Below are positions 1,455 through 18,623 of a stretch of DNA of 32,270 bases, piece by piece (the stretch's first letter is position 1; the number at the start of each line of letters is the position of its first letter). The stretch is from Eubacteriales bacterium (GTDB taxonomy: Bacteria; Bacillota; Clostridia; Lachnospirales; Lachnospiraceae): the NCBI GenBank assembly GCA_030524715.1, contig JAUNGB010000064.1:1-32270 (forward strand). The letters are read 5' to 3'. The notes beneath the pieces are model-generated. The model did no database searches, was not told the origin of the DNA, and saw only the letters and a program-made list of their open reading frames with translations. Both the position numbers and the translations under genes were made by a program.

Positions 1455-2093
1455 ATGGATAATATTACAAGAAGAGATTTGGGACTACCATATATTTCAG
1501 ATGATGCTGTTATGGAAGAGCAGAAGGTGTGCAGAAGAATTCTGCAGAGGTTAAATACAGCGGACCGTTCTGATTTTGAAGAGCTTTCCAAAATTGTGAA
1601 GGAACTGTTGGGAAAGTCAGAAGGAGCGTTTATCAATCCTCCGTTTTATTGTGATTACGGTTCTCACATTGAAGTCGGAAAGAACTTTTTTGCCAATTAT
1701 AATTGTACTATTATTGATGTGGCAAAGGTTAAGATCGGAGACAACTGCCAGATGGCCCCGAATGTAGCAATCTATACTGCAGGCCATCCCCTGCATCCGG
1801 TGTCCAGAAATTCCATGTATGAATACGGAATTGAGGTTACGGTCGGGGATAATGTGTGGATCGGAGGAAATACAGTGATTCTCCCTGGCGTACATATCGG
1901 AGATAATGTTGTTATTGGCGCGGGAAGCGTGGTCTCCAAGGATATCCCGGACTGGAGCGTGGCTGTGGGAAATCCCTGCAGAGTAATTAAAAAGATTACG
2001 GAAGAGGACAGGAAGTATTACTACAAGGATCGGGAATTTGACGAAGAGGCCTGGGCTGCGATTGAAGAGTTCGCGAAGAAGCAGGAAAAATAA
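1455..2093 (+). CDS. Sugar O-acetyltransferase (maltose/galactoside acetyltransferase family)
   Basis: A 212-aa acetyl-CoA-dependent O-acetyltransferase of the LacA/Maa left-handed beta-helix group. An N-terminal helical region is followed by hexapeptide repeats (for example IGDNCQMAPNVAIYTAGH, VGDNVWIGGN and IGDNVVIGAGSVV). The AGHPLHP segment contains the expected catalytic histidine, and VAVGNPCRVIK is the usual end of the helix. Length fits the family. The start at 1455 is set by AGGAGGAAAAA directly upstream. It sits alone, followed by a terminator, so it is probably monocistronic. The natural acceptor (maltose, glucose, a galactoside or another sugar) cannot be told from sequence. Confidence 0.9.
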   Translation: MDNITRRDLGLPYISDDAVMEEQKVCRRILQRLNTADRSDFEELSKIVKELLGKSEGAFINPPFYCDYGSHIEVGKNFFANYNCTIIDVAKVKIGDNCQMAPNVAIYTAGHPLHPVSRNSMYEYGIEVTVGDNVWIGGNTVILPGVHIGDNVVIGAGSVVSKDIPDWSVAVGNPCRVIKKITEEDRKYYYKDREFDEEAWAAIEEFAKKQEK

Positions 2094-2138
2094 AGAATCA
2101 AAAGCTGCTTAAAATTTCACATCATCTCATAAAGAGGG

Positions 2139-2179
2139 CCGGTGAACTGGGTTGACTACAGTTTATCGGTTCTTTTTTT
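2139..2179 (+). terminator. Rho-independent terminator after the acetyltransferase
   Basis: CCGGTGAACTG (2139-2149) pairs with CAGTTTATCGG (2159-2169) through two G-U wobbles, followed by TTCTTTTTTTG. The position 45 bp after the stop codon fits. Confidence 0.8.
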
Positions 2180-2256
2180 GTATATTAGAAAGTTTTATAG
2201 AAACTCCAGAATCAACCGGCGGTAGAGTTTCGTTTGCAACTTCAAATATCCGGTTA

Positions 2257-2285
2257 TTGTAGACGGACTTCTGTCAGGGTAAAAT
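2257..2285 (+). promoter_or_regulatory. Predicted sigma-A promoter of the HTH-PurM gene
   Basis: TTGTAG (2257-2262), a 17-bp spacer, and TAAAAT (2280-2285). The near-palindrome GACGGACTTCTGTC (2262-2275) overlaps the -35 and spacer and could be an operator, possibly for autoregulation. That part is inference. Confidence 0.45.
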
Positions 2286-2297
2286 ATATCAGAGACA

Positions 2298-2330
2298 GGG
2301 ATTCGGTTCAGCGTAGCTGACCCGAATCCT
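2298..2330 (+). promoter_or_regulatory. Leader stem-loop upstream of the HTH-PurM gene
   Basis: GGGATTCGGTTCAGC and GCTGACCCGAATCC form a stem of about 14 bp with one mismatch and the loop GTA. It lies at the predicted 5' end of the transcript, about 50 bp upstream of the start codon. It has no U-tract, so it is not a simple terminator. It could stabilise the mRNA, serve as a DNA operator, or be a mobile hairpin remnant. Confidence 0.5.
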
Positions 2331-2382
2331 AAACAAGATTCGCGGGCGAGACTTGAATCTTATTCAATAGGAGGACACAGAA

Positions 2383-3627
2383 ATGCTGGATAATAAGAAA
2401 ATAGCAGGATTTATTGCAAAAAAGAGAAGAGAGTCCGGGCTGACCCAGGCGGAGGTCGCGGAAAATCTCAAGGTATCCTTTCAGGCGGTATCCAAGTGGG
2501 AAAACGGGACTCTTCCCAATATTGAAATGTTAGTGGAGCTGGCTGAATTATTACACGTTACCGTGGACGAAATCCTTGCCGGAAGTGAGAAATGCGAGGA
2601 AAGCTTTTCTTACAGCAAGGCGGGGGTGGATATTTCTTATACGGATTCCATGAAAAAAGAAATGGCTGTTTACCTGAAATCAGAGGATAAGCGTGTGCTG
2701 AACGGCCTTGGCCCTTTTGCATCTTTATATGATATCGATTTTCCGGAAATCAAAAATCCGGTGTTGGTCCTGAAATCGGAGGAGCCTGGTTCCAAGCAGA
2801 AGCTTGCAATGGAATATGGCTATTGTGAATCTATCTGCCACGACATGATTAATCATCTGGTCAATGATATTGCCGTTATGGGAGCCAGGCCTCTGGCTGT
2901 ATTGGATACGATCGTTTGTGGAAATGCGGAAAAAGAGACGATAAAATCCTTTGTAAAAGGAATTTCTGCCGCCTGCCGGGAAAATGAGTGTACGTTAGTG
3001 GGCGGGGAAACATCCATACAGCCCCAGGTAGTAGACAGAGGCGTGTATATCCTGACATCCAGTATTGCCGGAATTGTATCAAAGGATGAAATTATAGACG
3101 GCTCAGCAATAGAAGAGGGCGATGCGGTACTGGCAGTGGCGTCCAACGGACTCCATACGAACGGATATTCTCTGGTACGTATGCTGATGGACAGGATTCC
3201 CCGGATAAAGCTGGACAAAGTTGAAGGAGAAACCTTTATCGAGCAGATCATGAAGCCTCATGCGCCATATTATAAAGCGCTGAAGTCCGTTACCCGCAAA
3301 TCTGGTATTCACGGAATGGCCCATATTACCGGAGGCGGAATCGAAGGAAATCTGTGCAGGATTATTCCGGATAGCCTGACAGCAGAAATCGATTTATCCT
3401 CTGTCAGGCCGCTGCCGATTTTTTCTTATATCAGAAAGACAGGAAATATAAAAGAAGAGGAAATGCTTTCCACTTTTAACTGCGGCGTGGGCCTGATCAT
3501 CGTTGCGGCAAAGGAAGAAAGCGTGCAGATCCGGAAACAGATTTCCGGATTCTATGATTGCTATGAGATTGGACAGATCAGGAAGGGAAATAAAAAAGTT
3601 GTTTTCAGGCAGCATATCGAATGGTAA
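2383..3627 (+). CDS. XRE-type HTH domain fused to a PurM-like (AIR synthase) domain
   Basis: A 414-aa fusion. Residues about 1-68 form a Cro/C1-type helix-turn-helix (GLTQAEVAENLKVSFQAVSK, then LLHVTVDEILAG). From about residue 75 to the end it aligns by eye with full-length phosphoribosylaminoimidazole synthetase (PurM): AGVDI start, VNDIAVMGARPL, LVGGETS, SNGLHTNGYSLVR, ITGGGIEGN and FNCGVGLI are all in order. The usual DGVGTK nucleotide-loop motif reads EEPGSKQ, so activity may be altered. PurM makes aminoimidazole ribotide in purine and thiamine synthesis; here it may act as a DNA-binding enzyme or a ligand sensor. AGGAGG precedes the ATG. It lies about 135 bp upstream of the SOS-type radical-SAM gene but has its own promoter. 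Whether the genome has another normal purM is unknown. Confidence 0.85.
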   Translation: MLDNKKIAGFIAKKRRESGLTQAEVAENLKVSFQAVSKWENGTLPNIEMLVELAELLHVTVDEILAGSEKCEESFSYSKAGVDISYTDSMKKEMAVYLKSEDKRVLNGLGPFASLYDIDFPEIKNPVLVLKSEEPGSKQKLAMEYGYCESICHDMINHLVNDIAVMGARPLAVLDTIVCGNAEKETIKSFVKGISAACRENECTLVGGETSIQPQVVDRGVYILTSSIAGIVSKDEIIDGSAIEEGDAVLAVASNGLHTNGYSLVRMLMDRIPRIKLDKVEGETFIEQIMKPHAPYYKALKSVTRKSGIHGMAHITGGGIEGNLCRIIPDSLTAEIDLSSVRPLPIFSYIRKTGNIKEEEMLSTFNCGVGLIIVAAKEESVQIRKQISGFYDCYEIGQIRKGNKKVVFRQHIEW

Positions 3628-3701
3628 AAGGAGAAAAGCTGAGTAATCTGTGATTGGTGATGCGGAAAAAAACATATGTTTTGATTTTTGCGAAAATTAC
3701 C

Positions 3702-3730
3702 TTGACATCTGAGAACGTGTGTTCTATAAT
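3702..3730 (+). promoter_or_regulatory. Consensus promoter with LexA (SOS) box in its spacer
   Basis: TTGACA (3702-3707), a 17-bp spacer and TATAAT (3725-3730) give a perfect sigma-A promoter. The spacer contains GAACGTGTGTTC (3713-3724), a full match to the Gram-positive LexA/DinR core GAACRNRYGTTY. Bound LexA would block RNA polymerase, so the radical-SAM operon is predicted to be silent until DNA damage. Confidence 0.88.
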
Positions 3731-3740
3731 AGGGTAAAAG

Positions 3741-3752
3741 GAACGAATGTTT
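3741..3752 (+). promoter_or_regulatory. Second LexA-like box in the leader
   Basis: GAACGAATGTTT also fits GAACRNRYGTTY, with T in the final Y position. It lies 28 bp downstream of the first box, between the -10 and the ribosome binding site. Two LexA sites about three helical turns apart would tighten repression. Confidence 0.5.
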
Positions 3753-3762
3753 GGAGGACGTT

Positions 3763-5118
3763 ATGGTAATACAGGAATCTATGAGCATAATGGAAAAACT
3801 GGAGATATTGTCGGATGCTGCGAAGTATGACGTTGCCTGTACTTCCAGCGGCGTGGACCGCAGAGGCGACGGAAGGGGAATCGGGAACAGTATTGCGGCA
3901 GGCATCTGTCACAGCTTTGCCGGGGATGGAAGGTGCATCAGCCTCCTGAAAGTTTTGTATACCAATGAGTGCGTATTTGACTGCAAATACTGTATTAACA
4001 GGGCTTCCAATGAAGTGGCGCGGGCCAGCTTCACCCCTGAAGAGATCAGCAGGCTTACGATAGAATTTTACAGGCGTAATTATATAGAAGGACTATTTTT
4101 AAGCTCCGGTGTAAAGAACAGTCCGGATGAGACGATGGAGGAACTGATCCGTTCGGTGGAGTTGCTCCGCAATCAATATCATTTTCAGGGATATATTCAC
4201 CTGAAGGTAATTCCGGGAGCGTCGCCGGAGCTTATTGAACGTGCCGGATATCTGGCAGACAGGCTGAGCGTGAATCTGGAACTGCCTACGGCAGAGGGAT
4301 TGAAGCGTCTGGCTCCGCATAAAAGCCGCAGGACTATCTTAAGGCCTATGAAACAGATTCAGATGCGTCATGGGCAGAATAAGGAGGAATTGGCTTTATA
4401 CCGCCATACTCCTAAGTTTGCCCCGGCAGGACAGAGTACGCAGATGATCATCGGAGCTACGGGGGAAAGCGATTATCAGATCCTTTCGGTGGCAGAATCC
4501 CTGTATCAGCAGTTTTCTTTAAAGAGAGTGTTTTATTCGGCCTTTGTGGCGGTCAATGAGGACAAGGAGCTTCCCATGCTTCCCCAGGGGCCTCCGCTTC
4601 TTCGGGAGCACCGTCTGTATCAGGCTGACTGGCTGCTGCGGTTTTATGGTTTTCGGGCGGAAGAACTGCTGTCGGAGAAGCATCCCAATTTCAATCTTCT
4701 TCTTGACCCTAAGTGTGACTGGGCTTTAAGCCATCTGGAACAGTTTCCTGTGGAGATCAATACGGCGGATTACCATACCCTGCTTCGTGTTCCGGGAATC
4801 GGAGAAAGGTCAGCCTCACGCATTGCCCGGGCAAGGCGGCATCATTCTCTGGATTTCCCGGATTTGAAAAAAATCGGGGTTGTACTGAAGCGGGCGTTGT
4901 ATTTTATTACCTGCAATGGTAAAATGATGTATCCCACAAAATTGGATGAGGATTATATTCTCAGGAATATGCTCGCGCCGGAAGAGCAGTTTCCGGTACA
5001 TTTTTCGGAAATTACCTATCGGCAGCTATCTCTTTTTGATGATCAGTTTCTCTCTGGCGACATTGGAAATTCAGTGATACAAACAGTTCAAAAGCCGCTT
5101 GGAGAAGGGGGATTCTGA
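3763..5118 (+). CDS. Putative DNA modification/repair radical SAM protein with HhH domain (TIGR03916-like)
   Basis: A 451-aa radical SAM protein. The [4Fe-4S] motif is CVFDCKYC (Cys 70, 74 and 77). Before it lies a conserved CTSSGVDRRGDGRGIGN stretch; after it are LFLSSGVKNSPDETMEE and KVIPGASPELI, typical of the TIGR03916 family. Residues about 330-360 (EINTADYHTLLRVPGIGERS) form a helix-hairpin-helix DNA-binding motif. Family members co-occur with uracil-DNA-glycosylase-type proteins and are assumed to act in DNA repair or modification, but as far as I know the reaction is not established. The ATG at 3763 is chosen because GGAGG sits 5 bp upstream; a TTG at 3751 is less likely. It overlaps the next gene by one base and has LexA boxes in its promoter. 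Confidence 0.92.
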   Translation: MVIQESMSIMEKLEILSDAAKYDVACTSSGVDRRGDGRGIGNSIAAGICHSFAGDGRCISLLKVLYTNECVFDCKYCINRASNEVARASFTPEEISRLTIEFYRRNYIEGLFLSSGVKNSPDETMEELIRSVELLRNQYHFQGYIHLKVIPGASPELIERAGYLADRLSVNLELPTAEGLKRLAPHKSRRTILRPMKQIQMRHGQNKEELALYRHTPKFAPAGQSTQMIIGATGESDYQILSVAESLYQQFSLKRVFYSAFVAVNEDKELPMLPQGPPLLREHRLYQADWLLRFYGFRAEELLSEKHPNFNLLLDPKCDWALSHLEQFPVEINTADYHTLLRVPGIGERSASRIARARRHHSLDFPDLKKIGVVLKRALYFITCNGKMMYPTKLDEDYILRNMLAPEEQFPVHFSEITYRQLSLFDDQFLSGDIGNSVIQTVQKPLGEGGF

Positions 5119-5897
5119 TGGATTATGAGAAAAGAGTCTTAATTTGCGAGGATACCCTGGAGGGAATTTTTTCGGCAGTATATGACGGGTGGCATTATGG
5201 CGCTAAAGGACTTAATGTGGAAATTGTTACCCGGGAACCGGACGATATAGAGTTTTTCTGTACTTATGAGACGATACCCTCTGATGGGGAAAAGGCTCAG
5301 AAGGTGGCCCGTTCCGTACGGCGTAAATTGGGATATTCTGTGTATGAGCATATCTGCTATGCAGCGGTATCCGCACATCCGGATAAAGGAACTGCTGTTT
5401 TCCGCGTGCTGCTTAAGGCGCTGGGAAATGGAAAATGCAGGCGGGATATTATGGAAGCGCTGGCAGACCCTGATGTGTGCCTGGTTGCGAAGCTTCGTAC
5501 GAAGGTGTGGCACGAACTCCACAGATTTTACGGCTTTGTCCGTTTTCGTGAAATCGGGGGAGGCGTATTGTTTGCCAGGATCACTCCGGACAATGATATC
5601 CTGCTCATGCTCGCGCCTCATTTTGCGGATCGTTTTCCGAATGAGAACTGGATGATCTATGACGCTAAAAGGCAGAAGGCGCTGCTCCATCCAAGGGGAG
5701 GGGAATATACGCTCCGCACAGGAATAAAATTGACGGAAGAATACCGGGAGGCGCCGGGAAAGACGGAAGAATATGAAGAACTTTGGAAAGCGTTCTGTAA
5801 AAGTATTACCGTGGAGGCCCGGAAGAATCCCGGACTTCAGCAGCAGTTTGTGCCGCTGAAATTCCGTCCGGATATGGTGGAGTTTGAACGCAGATAA
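5118..5897 (+). CDS. Putative DNA repair/metabolism protein, radical-SAM partner (TIGR03915/DUF4130-like)
   Basis: A 259-aa protein of the family regularly paired with the preceding radical SAM protein. Recognisable parts are ICEDTLEGIFSAVYDGW at the N terminus and, in the middle, ADPDVCLVAKLRTKVWHELH followed by HRFYGFVRFREI and LLMLAPHFADRFPNENWMIY, the DUF4130 core. In other bacteria this domain is fused to a family 4-type uracil-DNA glycosylase; here it stands alone, with no iron-sulfur cysteine set or glycosylase motif that I can see. TGATG joins the upstream stop to this start, so translation is coupled. It is probably induced with the radical-SAM gene by DNA damage. The biochemical role is unknown. 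Confidence 0.88.
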   Translation: MDYEKRVLICEDTLEGIFSAVYDGWHYGAKGLNVEIVTREPDDIEFFCTYETIPSDGEKAQKVARSVRRKLGYSVYEHICYAAVSAHPDKGTAVFRVLLKALGNGKCRRDIMEALADPDVCLVAKLRTKVWHELHRFYGFVRFREIGGGVLFARITPDNDILLMLAPHFADRFPNENWMIYDAKRQKALLHPRGGEYTLRTGIKLTEEYREAPGKTEEYEELWKAFCKSITVEARKNPGLQQQFVPLKFRPDMVEFERR

Positions 5898-5952
5898 GCA
5901 TTCCCCGCTTTAAGTGCGCAGAGTACTAAGCGGCGGGTATAAGGGGATGCTT
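5896..5952 (+). repeat. Long hairpin over the stop codon of the DUF4130-like gene
   Basis: AAGCATTCCCC (5896-5906) pairs with GGGGATGCTT (5943-5952) with one bulged T, and CCGCTT/AAGCGG pairs inside it. The structure starts within the TAA and runs into the family A repeat. There is no U-tract, so it may act as an mRNA-stabilising 3' hairpin. Confidence 0.55.
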
Positions 5953-6046
5953 ATGTCAGTGGGAGTTCAAATCTCCCACTGACAAGTCGCGTAGCGACCT
6001 GCGTTCATGAGCATGTAGCAAAGCGGAATGCGAATGTCCGCTTTAT
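5946..6046 (+). repeat. Family A intergenic repeat, copy 1 (full length)
   Basis: About 100 bp with three consecutive hairpins: GTCAGTGGGAG/CTCCCACTGAC (5955-5983), GTCGC-GTA-GCGAC (5986-5998), and AAAGCGGA/TCCGCTTT (about 6020-6045). Between them lies TGCGTTCATGAGCATGTAGC. It is closely matched in inverse orientation at 28797-28893, with partial copies at 12226, 21763 and 31249. A partial tandem echo (CTTATGAGCATGTAGGA) follows near 6069. It encodes no protein. Confidence 0.8.
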
Positions 6047-6107
6047 TGCAAGCCGTAAAGGGGCTTGCGCTTATGAGCATGTAGGAAGACGAGGGCAGGA
6101 ACAGACT

Positions 6108-8468
6108 ATGGAGAAACCAATCATCCGTATTTCCGTCAGGAATCTTGTAGAGTTTATTTTACGAAGCGGCGATCTGGACGCCCGCAGAGGTACCGGGGAT
6201 AAAGAAGCCATGCTAAAGGGAAGCCGCCTGCACAGAAAGATCCAGAAGCAGATGGGAAGCAATTACCGGGCAGAGGTTTCTTTGAAAAGAATCACAGAAT
6301 ACGACGACCTGATCCTTCAGGTGGAAGGCAGGGCTGACGGGATCCAGACAGAAGAGGATAAGGTGACCATTGATGAGATTAAGGGGATCTATGCCAATCC
6401 GGAGCATTTGAGCGAGCCGGTTATGGTACACCGTGCCCAGGCAATGTGCTATGCCAGGATTTATGCGGAAACAGAGCAGCTTGAGGAGATTGGGATCCAG
6501 ATGACCTATGTAAATCTGGATACGGAAGAAATCAGGCGTTTTCAGGAGACAATCTCCTATCAGGAGCTTGTACAGTGGTACCAGGAGCTTACGGACAAAT
6601 ATCATAAATGGCTGTCTTATCAGCTTAAATGGAAGAGACAGAGAAATGCCTCGATGGAGGGACTGGAATTTCCGTTTCCTTACCGGGAGGGCCAGAAAAA
6701 GATGGTATCAAGCGTATACCACACGATTTCGGCGGGAAAGCAGATTTTTATCCAGGCGCCTACCGGTGTGGGAAAGACCATGTCGACGGTGTTTCCAGCC
6801 GTCCGTGCTGTGGGGGAGGGAAAGGGAGAAACGATTTTTTATCTGACTGCCAAGACCATAACCAGAACCGTTGCGGAAGAGGCGTTTTCTATATTAGCGG
6901 AAAAAGGCCTGAAGTTTAAGGTGATTACCATTACCGCCAAGGAGAAACTCTGTTTCTGCGAAAAAACAGAATGTAATCCCATTGCCTGTCCCTATGCCAG
7001 AGGGCATTTTGACAGAGTAAATGACGCTGTTTTTGAACTATGGACGTCAGGACAGGCGTTCAACAGGGAAGCTTTAAGGGAACAGGCGGAGAAATGGCAG
7101 GTATGCCCTTTTGAAATGTGCCTGGATCTTGCCGTATGGGCAGATGCGGTCATCTGTGACTATAATTATGCTTTTGACCCAAATGTGCATTTGAAAAGGT
7201 TTTTTGGGGAAGGCGTTACCGGAAAATATATTTTTTTAATTGACGAAGCCCATAATCTTGTGGAGCGCGGACGGGAAATGTACAGCGCGTCCATCTGTAA
7301 AGAAGAGGTTATGGAGGTCAAAAAATTTATCAAACCTTATAGCCCGGGGCTTGCGAAGACTCTGGAGCGCGTAAATAAGCAGCTTTTAGAATTGAAAAAA
7401 GAATGTGATTCTTATATCGTAATGGAAAATCCCGGGACATTGCCTTTAAGCCTTCTCGCCGTACAGGGAGAGATGGATAAAATTCTGGAAGAGCCGCCCG
7501 GTCAGGAGGCGGTGGACGGAATCCTTGATTTTTATTTCCAGGTCAGGGATTTTTTGAGTATTGCAGAGCTGGTTGATGAGAGTTATGTGGTGTATGCGTC
7601 CCATGGGGAGGACGGAAGATTCCGTGTGAAGCTTTTTTGCGTTAATCCGGCAGGAAATCTGGAAAATTATCTTAAGAAGGGCGTCAGCGCCGTGTTTTTT
7701 TCCGCTACGCTGCTTCCGATGAACTATTACAGGAAGCTTTTGAGTACGCAGAAGGATGATTATGGAATCTATGTGACCTCGCCGTTTTCCAGAGAAAAGA
7801 GATGCATTTTAAACGGTGTGGATGTGAGCAGCCGTTATACAAGACGGAGTTATGAGGAATACCGCAGGATCGCAGAATATATTGCCCGTACCGTCTGGCA
7901 GAAAAAGGGAAATTATATGGTCTTCTTTCCTTCTTATAAGCTGATGGAAGCTGTATTGGAGGTTTATGAGTCAGAATTTTCTGTGGACTGGGTAAGGTGT
8001 ATCTGTCAGAGCGCATCGATGAATGAAAGGGAAAGAGAGTCCTTTCTGGAGGAATTTACAGAGCAGGAGGAAACACTTGTGGGCTTCTGCGTTATGGGAG
8101 GCGTTTTCTCCGAGGGGATAGATCTGATGGGAAACCGTCTTATCGGAGTGATCGTGGTGGGGACAGGGATTCCCCAGATCAGCCATGAGAGGGAGATATT
8201 GAAAAATTATTATGACCACAGAGGGGAGAACGGATTTGACTATGCATACCGTTATCCCGGGATGAATAAAGTGTTACAGGCAGCAGGAAGGGTGATCCGC
8301 ACCCAGGAGGATGTGGGCTGTATCCTGCTTCTTGACGACCGGTTCAACAGTGTACAGTACCGGAATCTGCTTCCGGTGGAATGGTCTGACTGCCGTAACT
8401 GCAGGCTGCATAGTGTAGAAAAGGAATTGAGAGACTTCTGGAATCGCGTTATGGCAAGCGATAAATAA
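6108..8468 (+). CDS. ATP-dependent DNA helicase, DinG/Rad3-type, with N-terminal RecB/Cas4-like nuclease domain
   Basis: A 786-aa protein. Residues about 1-150 resemble a PD-(D/E)XK nuclease: VEGRADGI near 71-78, then TIDEIKG near 87-93 with the expected acidic and lysine residues. The helicase follows: Walker A APTGVGKT near 218-225, a cysteine cluster (CFCEKTECNPIACPY plus WQVCPFEMC) likely to hold an XPD-type 4Fe-4S cluster, DEAH at 379-382, FFSATLLP, GGVFSEGIDLMG, and motif VI QAAGRVIRT. Such enzymes unwind 5'-3' at damaged or structured DNA. The ribosome binding site is weak. It follows the radical-SAM repair genes after 210 bp of hairpin repeats, so it may share or have its own transcript. 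The C terminus ends with a CRNCRLH motif. Confidence 0.9.
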   Translation: MEKPIIRISVRNLVEFILRSGDLDARRGTGDKEAMLKGSRLHRKIQKQMGSNYRAEVSLKRITEYDDLILQVEGRADGIQTEEDKVTIDEIKGIYANPEHLSEPVMVHRAQAMCYARIYAETEQLEEIGIQMTYVNLDTEEIRRFQETISYQELVQWYQELTDKYHKWLSYQLKWKRQRNASMEGLEFPFPYREGQKKMVSSVYHTISAGKQIFIQAPTGVGKTMSTVFPAVRAVGEGKGETIFYLTAKTITRTVAEEAFSILAEKGLKFKVITITAKEKLCFCEKTECNPIACPYARGHFDRVNDAVFELWTSGQAFNREALREQAEKWQVCPFEMCLDLAVWADAVICDYNYAFDPNVHLKRFFGEGVTGKYIFLIDEAHNLVERGREMYSASICKEEVMEVKKFIKPYSPGLAKTLERVNKQLLELKKECDSYIVMENPGTLPLSLLAVQGEMDKILEEPPGQEAVDGILDFYFQVRDFLSIAELVDESYVVYASHGEDGRFRVKLFCVNPAGNLENYLKKGVSAVFFSATLLPMNYYRKLLSTQKDDYGIYVTSPFSREKRCILNGVDVSSRYTRRSYEEYRRIAEYIARTVWQKKGNYMVFFPSYKLMEAVLEVYESEFSVDWVRCICQSASMNERERESFLEEFTEQEETLVGFCVMGGVFSEGIDLMGNRLIGVIVVGTGIPQISHEREILKNYYDHRGENGFDYAYRYPGMNKVLQAAGRVIRTQEDVGCILLLDDRFNSVQYRNLLPVEWSDCRNCRLHSVEKELRDFWNRVMASDK

Positions 8469-8516
8469 AAAAGCAGAGAGAAAAAAGCAGAGATCCTGAA
8501 AAAAATGCCAGAGTAC

Positions 8517-8544
8517 TTGACATATTAAAAATTTACGATATACT
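8517..8544 (+). promoter_or_regulatory. Predicted sigma-A promoter of glmS
   Basis: TTGACA (8517-8522), a 16-bp spacer and TATACT (8539-8544). This leaves a leader of about 145 nt that includes a family B repeat. No glmS-ribozyme core is visible. Confidence 0.7.
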
Positions 8545-8609
8545 TTACTATATTTTTGCTTTACTTTGTAAAAATGCCAGCAAATTTATATGCTGATTGT
8601 GCAAACGAT

Positions 8610-8672
8610 GTTACTGTTCACTCCCAGGCCTTACACTGGCTGCAAGGCTTGGAGCCAATAGCGTATAATTGC
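8610..8672. repeat. Family B palindromic repeat upstream of glmS
   Basis: It begins GTTACTGTTCACTCCC and contains CAGGCCTTACACTGGCTG and CAAGGCTTGG. It matches the copies at 10528 and 23513 over most of its length. It is bordered by a 9-bp direct repeat CAAACGATG (8602-8610 and 8673-8681), which may be a target-site duplication. It lies inside the glmS leader. Confidence 0.65.
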
Positions 8673-8698
8673 CAAACGATGATTAGGAGGTTAGTGCA

Positions 8699-10525
8699 AT
8701 GTGTGGAATTGTTGGATATATAGGTGAGAATCAGGCGGCTCCGATTCTTTTGGACGGACTTGCGAAGCTGGAATACAGGGGCTATGATTCTGCCGGAATT
8801 GCCATTTATGATGGGAATGAGATCAGGATGGAAAAGGTTATGGGGCGTTTGAAGGTTCTGGAAGAACTGACCCACGGAGGGGAAACTATGCCCGGATGCG
8901 CGGGAATCGGACATACAAGATGGGCGACCCATGGCTGTCCTTCGGACACCAATGCACATCCGCATTTTAATAAAGAACATTCTATTGTGGTCGTGCACAA
9001 TGGGATCATCGAAAACTATGCCAAGCTGAAAAGAAAGCTGGAGGCTAAGGGATATGAATTTCTTTCTGAAACGGATACGGAGGTTTTGGTCCACCTGCTG
9101 ACAGAATATTATGACGGGGATCCCATCGCCGCGATTGAAAGGGTTATGCGGCGTGTGGAGGGTTCCTATGCCCTGGGGATTATGTTTTTAGATCATCCTC
9201 ATCATATTTATGCGGCACGCAAGGACAGCCCGCTGATCGTAGGCGCCAGCCCTGTGGGAAATCTGATCGCTTCGGATGTGCCTGCGATTCTCCGTTACAC
9301 AAGAAATGTTTATTATATGGAAAACGAGGAGATCGTATGCCTTTCCAAAGAAAATATCAGATTTTTTAATATTGACGGTGATAAGCTGGAAAAAACTCCC
9401 ACAACTATCGATTGGGATATTGATGCGGCGGAAAAGGGCGGATATGAGCACTTTATGCTGAAGGAAATTTATGAACAGCCGAAAGCAGTTCGTGATACCA
9501 TCAGCCCCCGCCTGAAAAACAACGACGTAGTGATCGAAGAACTGGGGATGACGGACGACGAGCTCCGTGCGGTGCGCAAAATTTCTATCGTTGCCTGCGG
9601 TTCTGCTTACCATGCGGGAATTACCGGAAAATATGTCCTGGAGGGAATGGCGAGGATCCCGGTTGAGGTGGATCTTGCCAGTGAATTTCGTTACCGTAAC
9701 CCGATTTATGAAGAGGGGACGCTGGCAATTATCATCAGCCAGTCCGGAGAAACCGCGGATTCCCTTGCTGCTCTTCGGGAGGCAAAGAAGCATGGGGTTC
9801 GCGTGCTCGGCATTGTAAACGTAGTGGGAAGTTCAATTGCCAGGGAAGCAGATAATGTCATGTATACATGGGCTGGGCCGGAGATTTCTGTCGCCACCAC
9901 AAAAGCATACAGCGCTCAGATCGCCGCCTTGTATCTTCTTGCCATGAAATTTGCAAAGGTGAGGGGAACAGTAAGTCAGGAAGAATTTCTGAAAATGCAG
10001 TCAGATCTGGAGCAGCTTCCGGAGCAGATCGAAACACTGCTTGGCATGAAGGAGAAGATCCAGCGTTTTGCAAACCGTTATCTGGCTGCGGATCATATGT
10101 TCTTTATCGGAAGGGGAATTGACTATGCGATTTCTCTGGAAGGCTCTTTGAAGCTGAAAGAGATTTCTTACATCCATTCCGAGGCATATGCGGCCGGTGA
10201 GCTGAAGCATGGCACGATTTCACTGATCGAAGACGGAACTCTGGTGGTAGCCCTTGCCACTCAGGAAAATCTTTATCCCAAGACGATCAGCAATATTGTG
10301 GAAGTAAAGACAAGAGGCGCTTTTGTTATGGCCGTAACGAATTTCGGACATAAGGAAATCGAAAAAACTGCGGATTATGTGATTTACATTCCCAAGACCA
10401 ATCAGTTTTTTACAAATTCCCTGGCGATCATTCCTCTTCAGTTATTCGGCTATTATGTCTCTCTCGGACGCGGCCTGGATGTGGACAAACCAAGGAATCT
10501 GGCAAAATCCGTAACAGTGGAATAA
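8699..10525 (+). CDS. glmS: Glutamine-fructose-6-phosphate aminotransferase (isomerizing)
   Basis: A 608-aa enzyme converting fructose-6-phosphate and glutamine to glucosamine-6-phosphate, the entry step to UDP-GlcNAc and peptidoglycan. The N terminus MCGIVGYIG places the nucleophile Cys at position 2 after Met removal. RGYDSAGIA, GHTRWATHG and HNGIIEN complete the class II glutaminase domain. Two SIS domains follow (ACGSAYHAG, SQSGETADSLAAL; GRGIDYAISLEGSLKLKEISY), and the end DKPRNLAKSVTVE is the standard C-terminal tail. Length is normal. AGGAGG lies 9 bp upstream. The gene is flanked on both sides by family B repeats and appears monocistronic. Confidence 0.98.
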   Translation: MCGIVGYIGENQAAPILLDGLAKLEYRGYDSAGIAIYDGNEIRMEKVMGRLKVLEELTHGGETMPGCAGIGHTRWATHGCPSDTNAHPHFNKEHSIVVVHNGIIENYAKLKRKLEAKGYEFLSETDTEVLVHLLTEYYDGDPIAAIERVMRRVEGSYALGIMFLDHPHHIYAARKDSPLIVGASPVGNLIASDVPAILRYTRNVYYMENEEIVCLSKENIRFFNIDGDKLEKTPTTIDWDIDAAEKGGYEHFMLKEIYEQPKAVRDTISPRLKNNDVVIEELGMTDDELRAVRKISIVACGSAYHAGITGKYVLEGMARIPVEVDLASEFRYRNPIYEEGTLAIIISQSGETADSLAALREAKKHGVRVLGIVNVVGSSIAREADNVMYTWAGPEISVATTKAYSAQIAALYLLAMKFAKVRGTVSQEEFLKMQSDLEQLPEQIETLLGMKEKIQRFANRYLAADHMFFIGRGIDYAISLEGSLKLKEISYIHSEAYAAGELKHGTISLIEDGTLVVALATQENLYPKTISNIVEVKTRGAFVMAVTNFGHKEIEKTADYVIYIPKTNQFFTNSLAIIPLQLFGYYVSLGRGLDVDKPRNLAKSVTVE

Positions 10526-18551: not shown

Positions 18552-18623
18552 AGCTGATGACGAGAATTGAACTCGTGACCCCTTCCTTACCAAGGAAGTG
18601 CTCTACCTCTGAGCCACATCAGC
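18552..18623 (-). tRNA. tRNA-Thr (anticodon GGT)
   Basis: The reverse complement folds as a cloverleaf: acceptor GCTGATG/CATCAGC, D-arm GGCTCAGAGGTAGAGC, anticodon stem CTTCC/GGAAG with loop TTGGTAA (anticodon GGT), and T-arm ACGAGTTCAATTCTCGT. The 3' CCA is not encoded. It has a consensus promoter at 18664-18692 and a terminator at 18437-18470, both on the minus strand. Confidence 0.93.

Follow-up and report, generated by a model that had tools for sequence, protein, structure and literature searches.

A radical-SAM and DUF4130 gene pair of Lachnospiraceae is predicted to form a LexA-controlled SOS operon

Introduction

Is the TIGR03916–TIGR03915 gene pair, which encodes a radical S-adenosylmethionine (radical-SAM) protein and a DUF4130 partner, part of the SOS response to DNA damage? 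The question is raised by a 32,270-nucleotide stretch of DNA from a Eubacteriales bacterium of the family Lachnospiraceae (hereafter the window), which is contig C210 in an assembly of 5.28 Mb and 210 contigs, and in which a LexA-type box lies inside the promoter of the pair. A sequence-only reading of this DNA had linked the pair to the DNA-damage response through LexA, and we find this link supported both by conservation of the box in homologues and by use of the same motif in the host genome. An SOS operon is the best explanation of the data as a whole, with a probability of about 0.9, and control of the pair by LexA is so well supported as a prediction that we regard it as close to certain.

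Results

Two predicted operators in the promoter of the pair

The pair and the elements that precede it are arranged as follows.

3670..3681, forward strand: one-mismatch box AAACATATGTTT, upstream of the -35 hexamer
3702..3707, forward strand: -35 hexamer TTGACA, read directly, 12/12 together with the -10 hexamer
3713..3724, forward strand: predicted LexA operator O1, GAACGTGTGTTC, in the promoter spacer and ending at the -10 hexamer; conserved in homologues
3725..3730, forward strand: -10 hexamer TATAAT, read directly, with a 17-nt spacer from the -35 hexamer
3741..3752, forward strand: predicted LexA operator O2, GAACGAATGTTT, located shortly after the inferred start site (about 3737) and abutting the ribosome-binding site
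3753..3757, forward strand: ribosome-binding site GGAGG, read directly, with the ATG at 3763
3763..5118, forward strand: TIGR03916 radical-SAM gene, 451 amino acids (690.7 bits, cut-off 343.5)
5118..5897, forward strand: TIGR03915/DUF4130 partner gene, 259 amino acids (TIGR03915 229.1 bits, cut-off 112.25; DUF4130 158.8 bits, cut-off 27)

The perfect TTGACA-17-TATAAT promoter that the sequence-only reading had described is present at 3702-3730 and is the sole 12/12 promoter match within 3400-8700. The box in its spacer, described there as a full match to the Gram-positive LexA core, fits GAACRNRYGTTY exactly on both strands, and the assignment of the two genes to the TIGR03916 and TIGR03915 families is borne out by scores above the curated cut-offs. 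A second exact match to GAACRNRYGTTY, the operator O2, had gone unmentioned and lies 28 bp downstream of O1. The box at 3670-3681 is possibly a weak third operator, judged by its one-mismatch sequence. When up to one mismatch is allowed, the window holds 19 matches to the motif against 5.2 expected, a count that none of 100 shuffles reached. The start codon of the partner gene shares one base with the last base of the radical-SAM gene's stop codon.

Conservation of the box in Lachnospiraceae and Bacillota

We compared the window with 80 Lachnospiraceae loci homologous to the pair, the best 80 of 199 matches in a contig search (one of them, L093, with an upstream sequence of only 181 bp). The strict box occurs 67 times in the 19,820 bp that lie up to 250 bp upstream of the pair and four times in 777,136 bp elsewhere in these loci, a 584-fold enrichment, while each of nine scrambled or reversed control patterns had upstream matches in 0 to 2 of the 80 loci. 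An exact GAACN4GTTY within 300 bp upstream is found in 61 of the 80 loci, 39 of which have two (shuffles, 1.2 of 80), and, with up to one mismatch allowed, at least two boxes are present in 77 of the 80, compared with 3.1 in shuffles. The scan of homologous promoters across the family, which the sequence-only reading had proposed as a check, therefore comes out in favour of the box.

The four strict boxes away from the pair are in L040, L057, L078 and L085. In L040 and L057, which have no exact box at the usual position, the strict box is 1.6 kb upstream of the pair; there a RarA-type AAA ATPase gene stands ahead of the pair, and the box precedes that gene.

L040 3401-4846 and L057 3513-4838: RarA-type AAA ATPase gene (best NCBIfam match 480 bits; all matches under the cut-offs of their models)

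The RarA-type proteins of L057 and, when read from its second start, of L040 begin with MEQLSLF, a peptide of the clamp-binding type.

Beyond the family, 398 genomes were drawn evenly from the phylum Bacillota (membership inferred from named relatives), and TIGR03916 exceeds its family cut-off in 91 of them, about a quarter; it also occurs in several other phyla. The Bacillota set comprises 90 loci, among them the window's own, and leaves out G209 and an incomplete second match in G145; the upstream sequence of L160 is mostly N, and L161, L193 and L196 have less than 300 bp of it. Between -300 bp and +30 bp of the start, 55 of the 90 loci carry an exact GAACN4GTTY (1.25 in shuffles), and 76 carry a box at up to one mismatch.

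LexA was searched for in 50 of the 91 TIGR03916-positive genomes and was above cut-off in 49. The lexA promoters were examined in 30 of these 50 genomes; 23 have an exact GAACN4GTTY, and the other seven all belong to one genus (g140; L184-L190, L230-L235 and L237). In its seven genomes the pair lacks a GAAC box, the sequence upstream of it is GAATATATATTC in six and GAATATGTATTC in one, and the exact GAAC box of the lexA promoters is replaced by GAATGTATGTTT in six and GAATATATGTTT in one. This is suggestive of an operator drift from GAAC to GAAT common to lexA and the pair, in one genus and in an AT-rich palindrome. In L166 (G368, contig C38) the TIGR03916 match is preceded, at a distance of 84 bp, by a LexA/S24-type frame of 64.9 bits (below the cut-off), and no GAAC box was found there.

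The host genome's own SOS genes

The host genome has one TIGR00498 match (249.6 bits), a LexA of 206 amino acids that contains VTAG plus GESM and VK stretches. We take VTAG to be where LexA cleaves itself, and the Ser-Lys pair to lie in GESM and VK; by its sequence, the host LexA has the residues expected of a self-cleaving repressor. The sequence-only reading had suggested looking for the motif at lexA, recA and uvrB, and the genome's LexA does appear to use it there: uvrB has the exact box GAACAAATGTTC, and recA and lexA have the one-mismatch boxes GAACATAGGTTC and GAACGTATTTTC. Exact boxes also precede a Y-family polymerase-type gene (by 33 bp), a GyrB/ParE-type gene (104 bp) and hflX (152 bp), another overlaps the likely start codon of uvrC, and a UvrB-like fragment at a contig end is likewise preceded by one. 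The two uvrB-type genes, one a complete uvrB and the other a UvrB-like N-terminus truncated at the contig end, are at C148:3688 and C63:18990 of the genome (L106 and L107). The assembly is listed with 5.02% contamination, and one of the two may be foreign.

Genome-wide, the exact motif is not over-represented: it has 23 hits (21 places, with two palindromes counted twice) compared with 31 for the reversed control. The bare motif alone is therefore no proof, and the evidence lies in its placement and conservation. Eight of the 21 places are at SOS-type genes or at the pair, the window's two included; of the other 13, eight are inside listed open reading frames (ORFs), three are at most 60 bp upstream of an ORF and two are farther off. 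The three ORFs closely behind boxes are adenine-methyltransferase-like (L014), without family (L017) and thioesterase-like (L019). At L014 (contig C159) the exact box at 1501-1512 stands 51 bp before the adenine-specific DNA methyltransferase-like gene (1564-3012), which, to judge from this position, is possibly a further LexA target.

Operator switching in other lineages

Because LexA operators differ between lineages, homologues outside the Bacillota provide an independent test of LexA control. Relatives are found on 158 plasmid records and on 10 records of a phage collection. We took 20 of the 158 plasmid records, chosen for variety from 40 listed and with their promoters unseen at that point (13 alphaproteobacterial, one betaproteobacterial, one from Acinetobacter, two from Bacteroidota, one from Gemmatimonadota and two from Clostridia), and opened one of the 10 phage records. 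All 13 alphaproteobacterial homologues have an exact GAAC-N7-GAAC within 200 bp upstream, a pattern that is absent from 53,536 bp elsewhere in the loci, and ten control patterns gave at most one upstream match each. The Caballeronia homologue (one record) has a CTGT-N8-ACAG operator, CTGTATAAATATACAG, and an exact GAACN4GTTY lies within 200 bp in the Pusillibacter and Acetoanaerobium plasmid records and in the faecal phage contig. Across three lineages, the pair is thus preceded by three different types of LexA operator (the third in a single record) and therefore belongs, we conclude, to the DNA-damage response.

Upstream of the Acinetobacter, Bacteroides, Parabacteroides and Gemmatirosa homologues no convincing operator site was seen. 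To our knowledge, Acinetobacter has no LexA. Two Bacteroides species are described as lacking LexA homologues in a passage of PMC8565304.

Placement of the operators on the promoter

Among loci that have both a box (up to one mismatch) and a predicted promoter, the boxes fall on the best predicted promoter or in the 20 nt that follow it in 44 of 50 Lachnospiraceae loci and 43 of 54 Bacillota loci, compared with 20.8 and 12.1 expected from random placement; no promoter was predicted in 29 of the 80 and 26 of the 90 loci. In most of the relatives listed for this comparison, O2 lies near the start site and begins 28-33 nt downstream of the -35 hexamer. O1 sits either in the spacer, usually 1 or 5 nt behind that hexamer, or upstream of it (around -27), and these alternative positions of O1 would explain why box spacings are commonly either 24-30 or 55-58 bp. 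The loci L038, L039 and L056 deviate from the common layout.

The radical-SAM protein

The TIGR03916 protein has a CX3CX2C motif at C70/C74/C77, a radical-SAM fold and a helix-hairpin-helix (HhH) domain, and its nearest named relatives include several Blautia records. Three further cysteines N-terminal to the radical-SAM motif, C26, C49 and C58, are each present in 189 of 190 homologues and form a candidate site for a second Fe-S cluster. Near its C-terminus lies a short peptide of the kind that binds the sliding clamp.

5023..5037, forward strand: QLSLF codons (residues 421-425), canonical sliding-clamp-binding pentapeptide

QLSLF fits the clamp peptide QL[S/D]LF or QxxLF, according to the consensus given in part of PMC12309361, and the tail that holds it has a low predicted local distance difference test score (pLDDT). 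A C-terminal motif of this type is present in 155 of the 190 homologues under the strict definition and in 181 under the relaxed one (0.5 and 9.1 with shuffled tails), and in one of 885 protein-body windows. It is likely, given this conservation, that the radical-SAM protein would be tethered to the replication clamp via its QLSLF tail, and the clamp motif indicates the probable place of action.

The partner protein and the downstream helicase

The 259-residue partner matches DUF4130/TIGR03915 only and has no uracil-DNA glycosylase (UDG) domain. None of 152 Bacillota partners with a readable end has such a domain. In the four alpha- and betaproteobacterial partners that were scanned, DUF4130 is fused to a UDG domain of the UdgX type. 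Because at most 54 residues follow DUF4130 in the 152 Bacillota partners, the UDG looks like an add-on, and the SOS-controlled core is the radical-SAM protein plus DUF4130. The predicted fold of the partner may resemble RecJ/Cdc45-type DHH proteins, probably without their DHH motif; opposite INIDHH of NrnA it has EIVTREPDDIEFF, in a weak, non-significant profile alignment. Going by this structural model, the chances that the partner is a DHH-like protein are about even.

6108..8468, forward strand: DinG/Rad3-type helicase gene (Pfam Helicase_C_2 above cut-off; NCBIfam DinG and rad3 models below theirs)

The helicase gene begins 210 bp after the pair and, from its position, possibly belongs to the operon through read-through. 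The partner end is readable in 77 loci: a helicase homologue starts at most 1000 bp downstream of the pair in 49 of these and farther away in six, and none was seen in the other 22, 19 of them with 1500 bp or more of sequence downstream. The helicase matches a type IV CRISPR DinG model (386.9 bits), and no PADLOC model matches the pair.

By eye, the gap between pair and helicase (5898-6107) contains inverted repeats, e.g. gtcagtgggag...ctcccactgac. Upstream of the pair, 2383-3627 encodes a fusion of an XRE-type helix-turn-helix with a PurM-type AIR synthase domain (TIGR00878 at 272 bits, above cut-off), which had no match above 100 bits among the 80 relative loci. Rfam gave a single match in the whole window, a tRNA (18552-18623).

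Discussion

Could the box be a chance 12-mer in an AT-rich promoter, without regulatory meaning? The absence of a genome-wide excess over the reversed pattern would suit this explanation, as would the eight of 13 remaining places that fall inside listed ORFs. Against it stand the 584-fold upstream enrichment in the 80 homologues, the second box, the promoter placement and the lineage-specific operator switch; we reject a chance origin on sequence grounds, namely the conservation compared with shuffles and the switch of operators, and give it a negligible probability. It is also very improbable that the boxes are operators of another repressor with a GAAC-N4-GTTC motif, be it a phage-type S24 protein or another LexA paralogue. 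More than one LexA/S24-like match is present in many of the Bacillota genomes examined for LexA, and an S24-type frame lies directly ahead of the pair in G368, but the host genome has a single TIGR00498 match and uses the motif at uvrB, recA and lexA as well, and the alpha- and betaproteobacterial homologues have the operator types published for the LexA of their own group or of E. coli.

Two further explanations accept SOS control and differ in what the pair would do. It might serve DNA modification or phage defence, with SOS control as the answer to phage replication; the family name (modification/repair), the relatives on phage-collection and plasmid records and the helicase's match to the CRISPR model point in this direction. 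The lack of a PADLOC match, the repair-type helicase beside the pair in 49 of the 77 loci and the RarA-type gene ahead of it in two argue otherwise, the clamp motif and HhH domain suit replication-coupled repair, and eight of the 10 phage-collection records are faecal 'Bacteriophage sp.' entries of 4.5 to 43.8 kb, the one opened being marked UNVERIFIED, so that we consider a defence role improbable. Somewhat less improbable, though still unlikely, is a uracil-type base-excision module as in COG1573-COG4277, with the glycosylase supplied by another gene. The UdgX-type fusions in alpha- and betaproteobacteria favour it, and base excision of misincorporated nucleotides is proposed in a passage of PMC8565304; the short sequence after DUF4130 in the Bacillota partners with a readable end speaks against it. 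A role of the SOS-controlled pair in DNA repair is quite probable.

TIGR03916 is presumably a member of COG4277. In Bacteroidetes the COG1573-COG4277 genes have been predicted to be under a local SOS repressor, and in the same context a UDG-based system of Verrucomicrobia and Alphaproteobacteria is cited as SOS-controlled (passages of PMC8565304). In that system, as these passages describe it, the partner includes a uracil-DNA glycosylase and the operators are GGA-N5-TCC or CTAA-N5-TTAG, whereas the partner in the window has no UDG. Closer to our locus, a LexA site was predicted in 2013 for CAC3343-CAC3344 of Clostridium acetobutylicum (PMC3828012). This was a prediction in one species, CAC3343 corresponds to TIGR03916 by its given name only, and the passages on the operon do not include the two-operator layout, the clamp motif or a cross-phylum test. 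The LexA link is thus already in print as a prediction and hence not new in kind; new here are the breadth, the two-operator layout, the UDG-less Bacillota partners, the three extra cysteines and the clamp motif.

The operator itself is of the Bacillus/Clostridium type, GAAC-N4-GTTC/T, given for lexA, recA and uvrB in a passage of PMC4234289, as found here at uvrB and, with one mismatch, at recA and lexA; the word 'radical' is absent from the main text of this C. difficile paper. In Streptomyces venezuelae the radical-SAM gene vnz_31145, of unstated family, has LexA enrichment in chromatin immunoprecipitation sequencing and RNA sequencing data under mitomycin C (a passage of PMC9380542). The spore photoproduct lyase SplB is a radical-SAM DNA repair enzyme and is linked to SOS in passages of PMC8565304 and PMC3765255. 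Its model is not among the NCBIfam matches of the window protein, and the TIGR03916 family combines an HhH domain with a clamp-type motif.

How might such an SOS operon work? From known LexA biology, LexA bound to O1 in the spacer and to O2 at the start site would block RNA polymerase; damaged DNA would lead to RecA filaments and self-cleavage of LexA, upon which the pair, and perhaps the helicase too, would be made. To go by its sequence, the radical-SAM protein would bind DNA through its HhH domain and the clamp through its C-terminal QLSLF tail, and a SAM-derived radical, perhaps aided by a second Fe-S cluster, would act on a damaged nucleotide, while the partner probably assists DNA recognition or processing. 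That the reaction is the radical repair of a damaged base or crosslink is a tentative proposal, and we hold it as rather doubtful. Slightly more probable, although short of even odds, is the broader picture of a widespread, SOS-induced and clamp-tethered repair machine, in which a radical-SAM protein with a probable second cluster and a degenerate RecJ/Cdc45-like DHH partner may carry out radical repair of lesions at stalled forks, with a RarA-type ATPase in the same operon or a partner-fused UdgX as lineage extensions.

About a quarter of the phylum genomes sampled carry the pair's first gene, yet no tested function of TIGR03916-TIGR03915 was found in the literature searched. If the proposal is true, DNA repair by a radical-SAM enzyme that is not a spore photoproduct lyase would represent a new repair chemistry.
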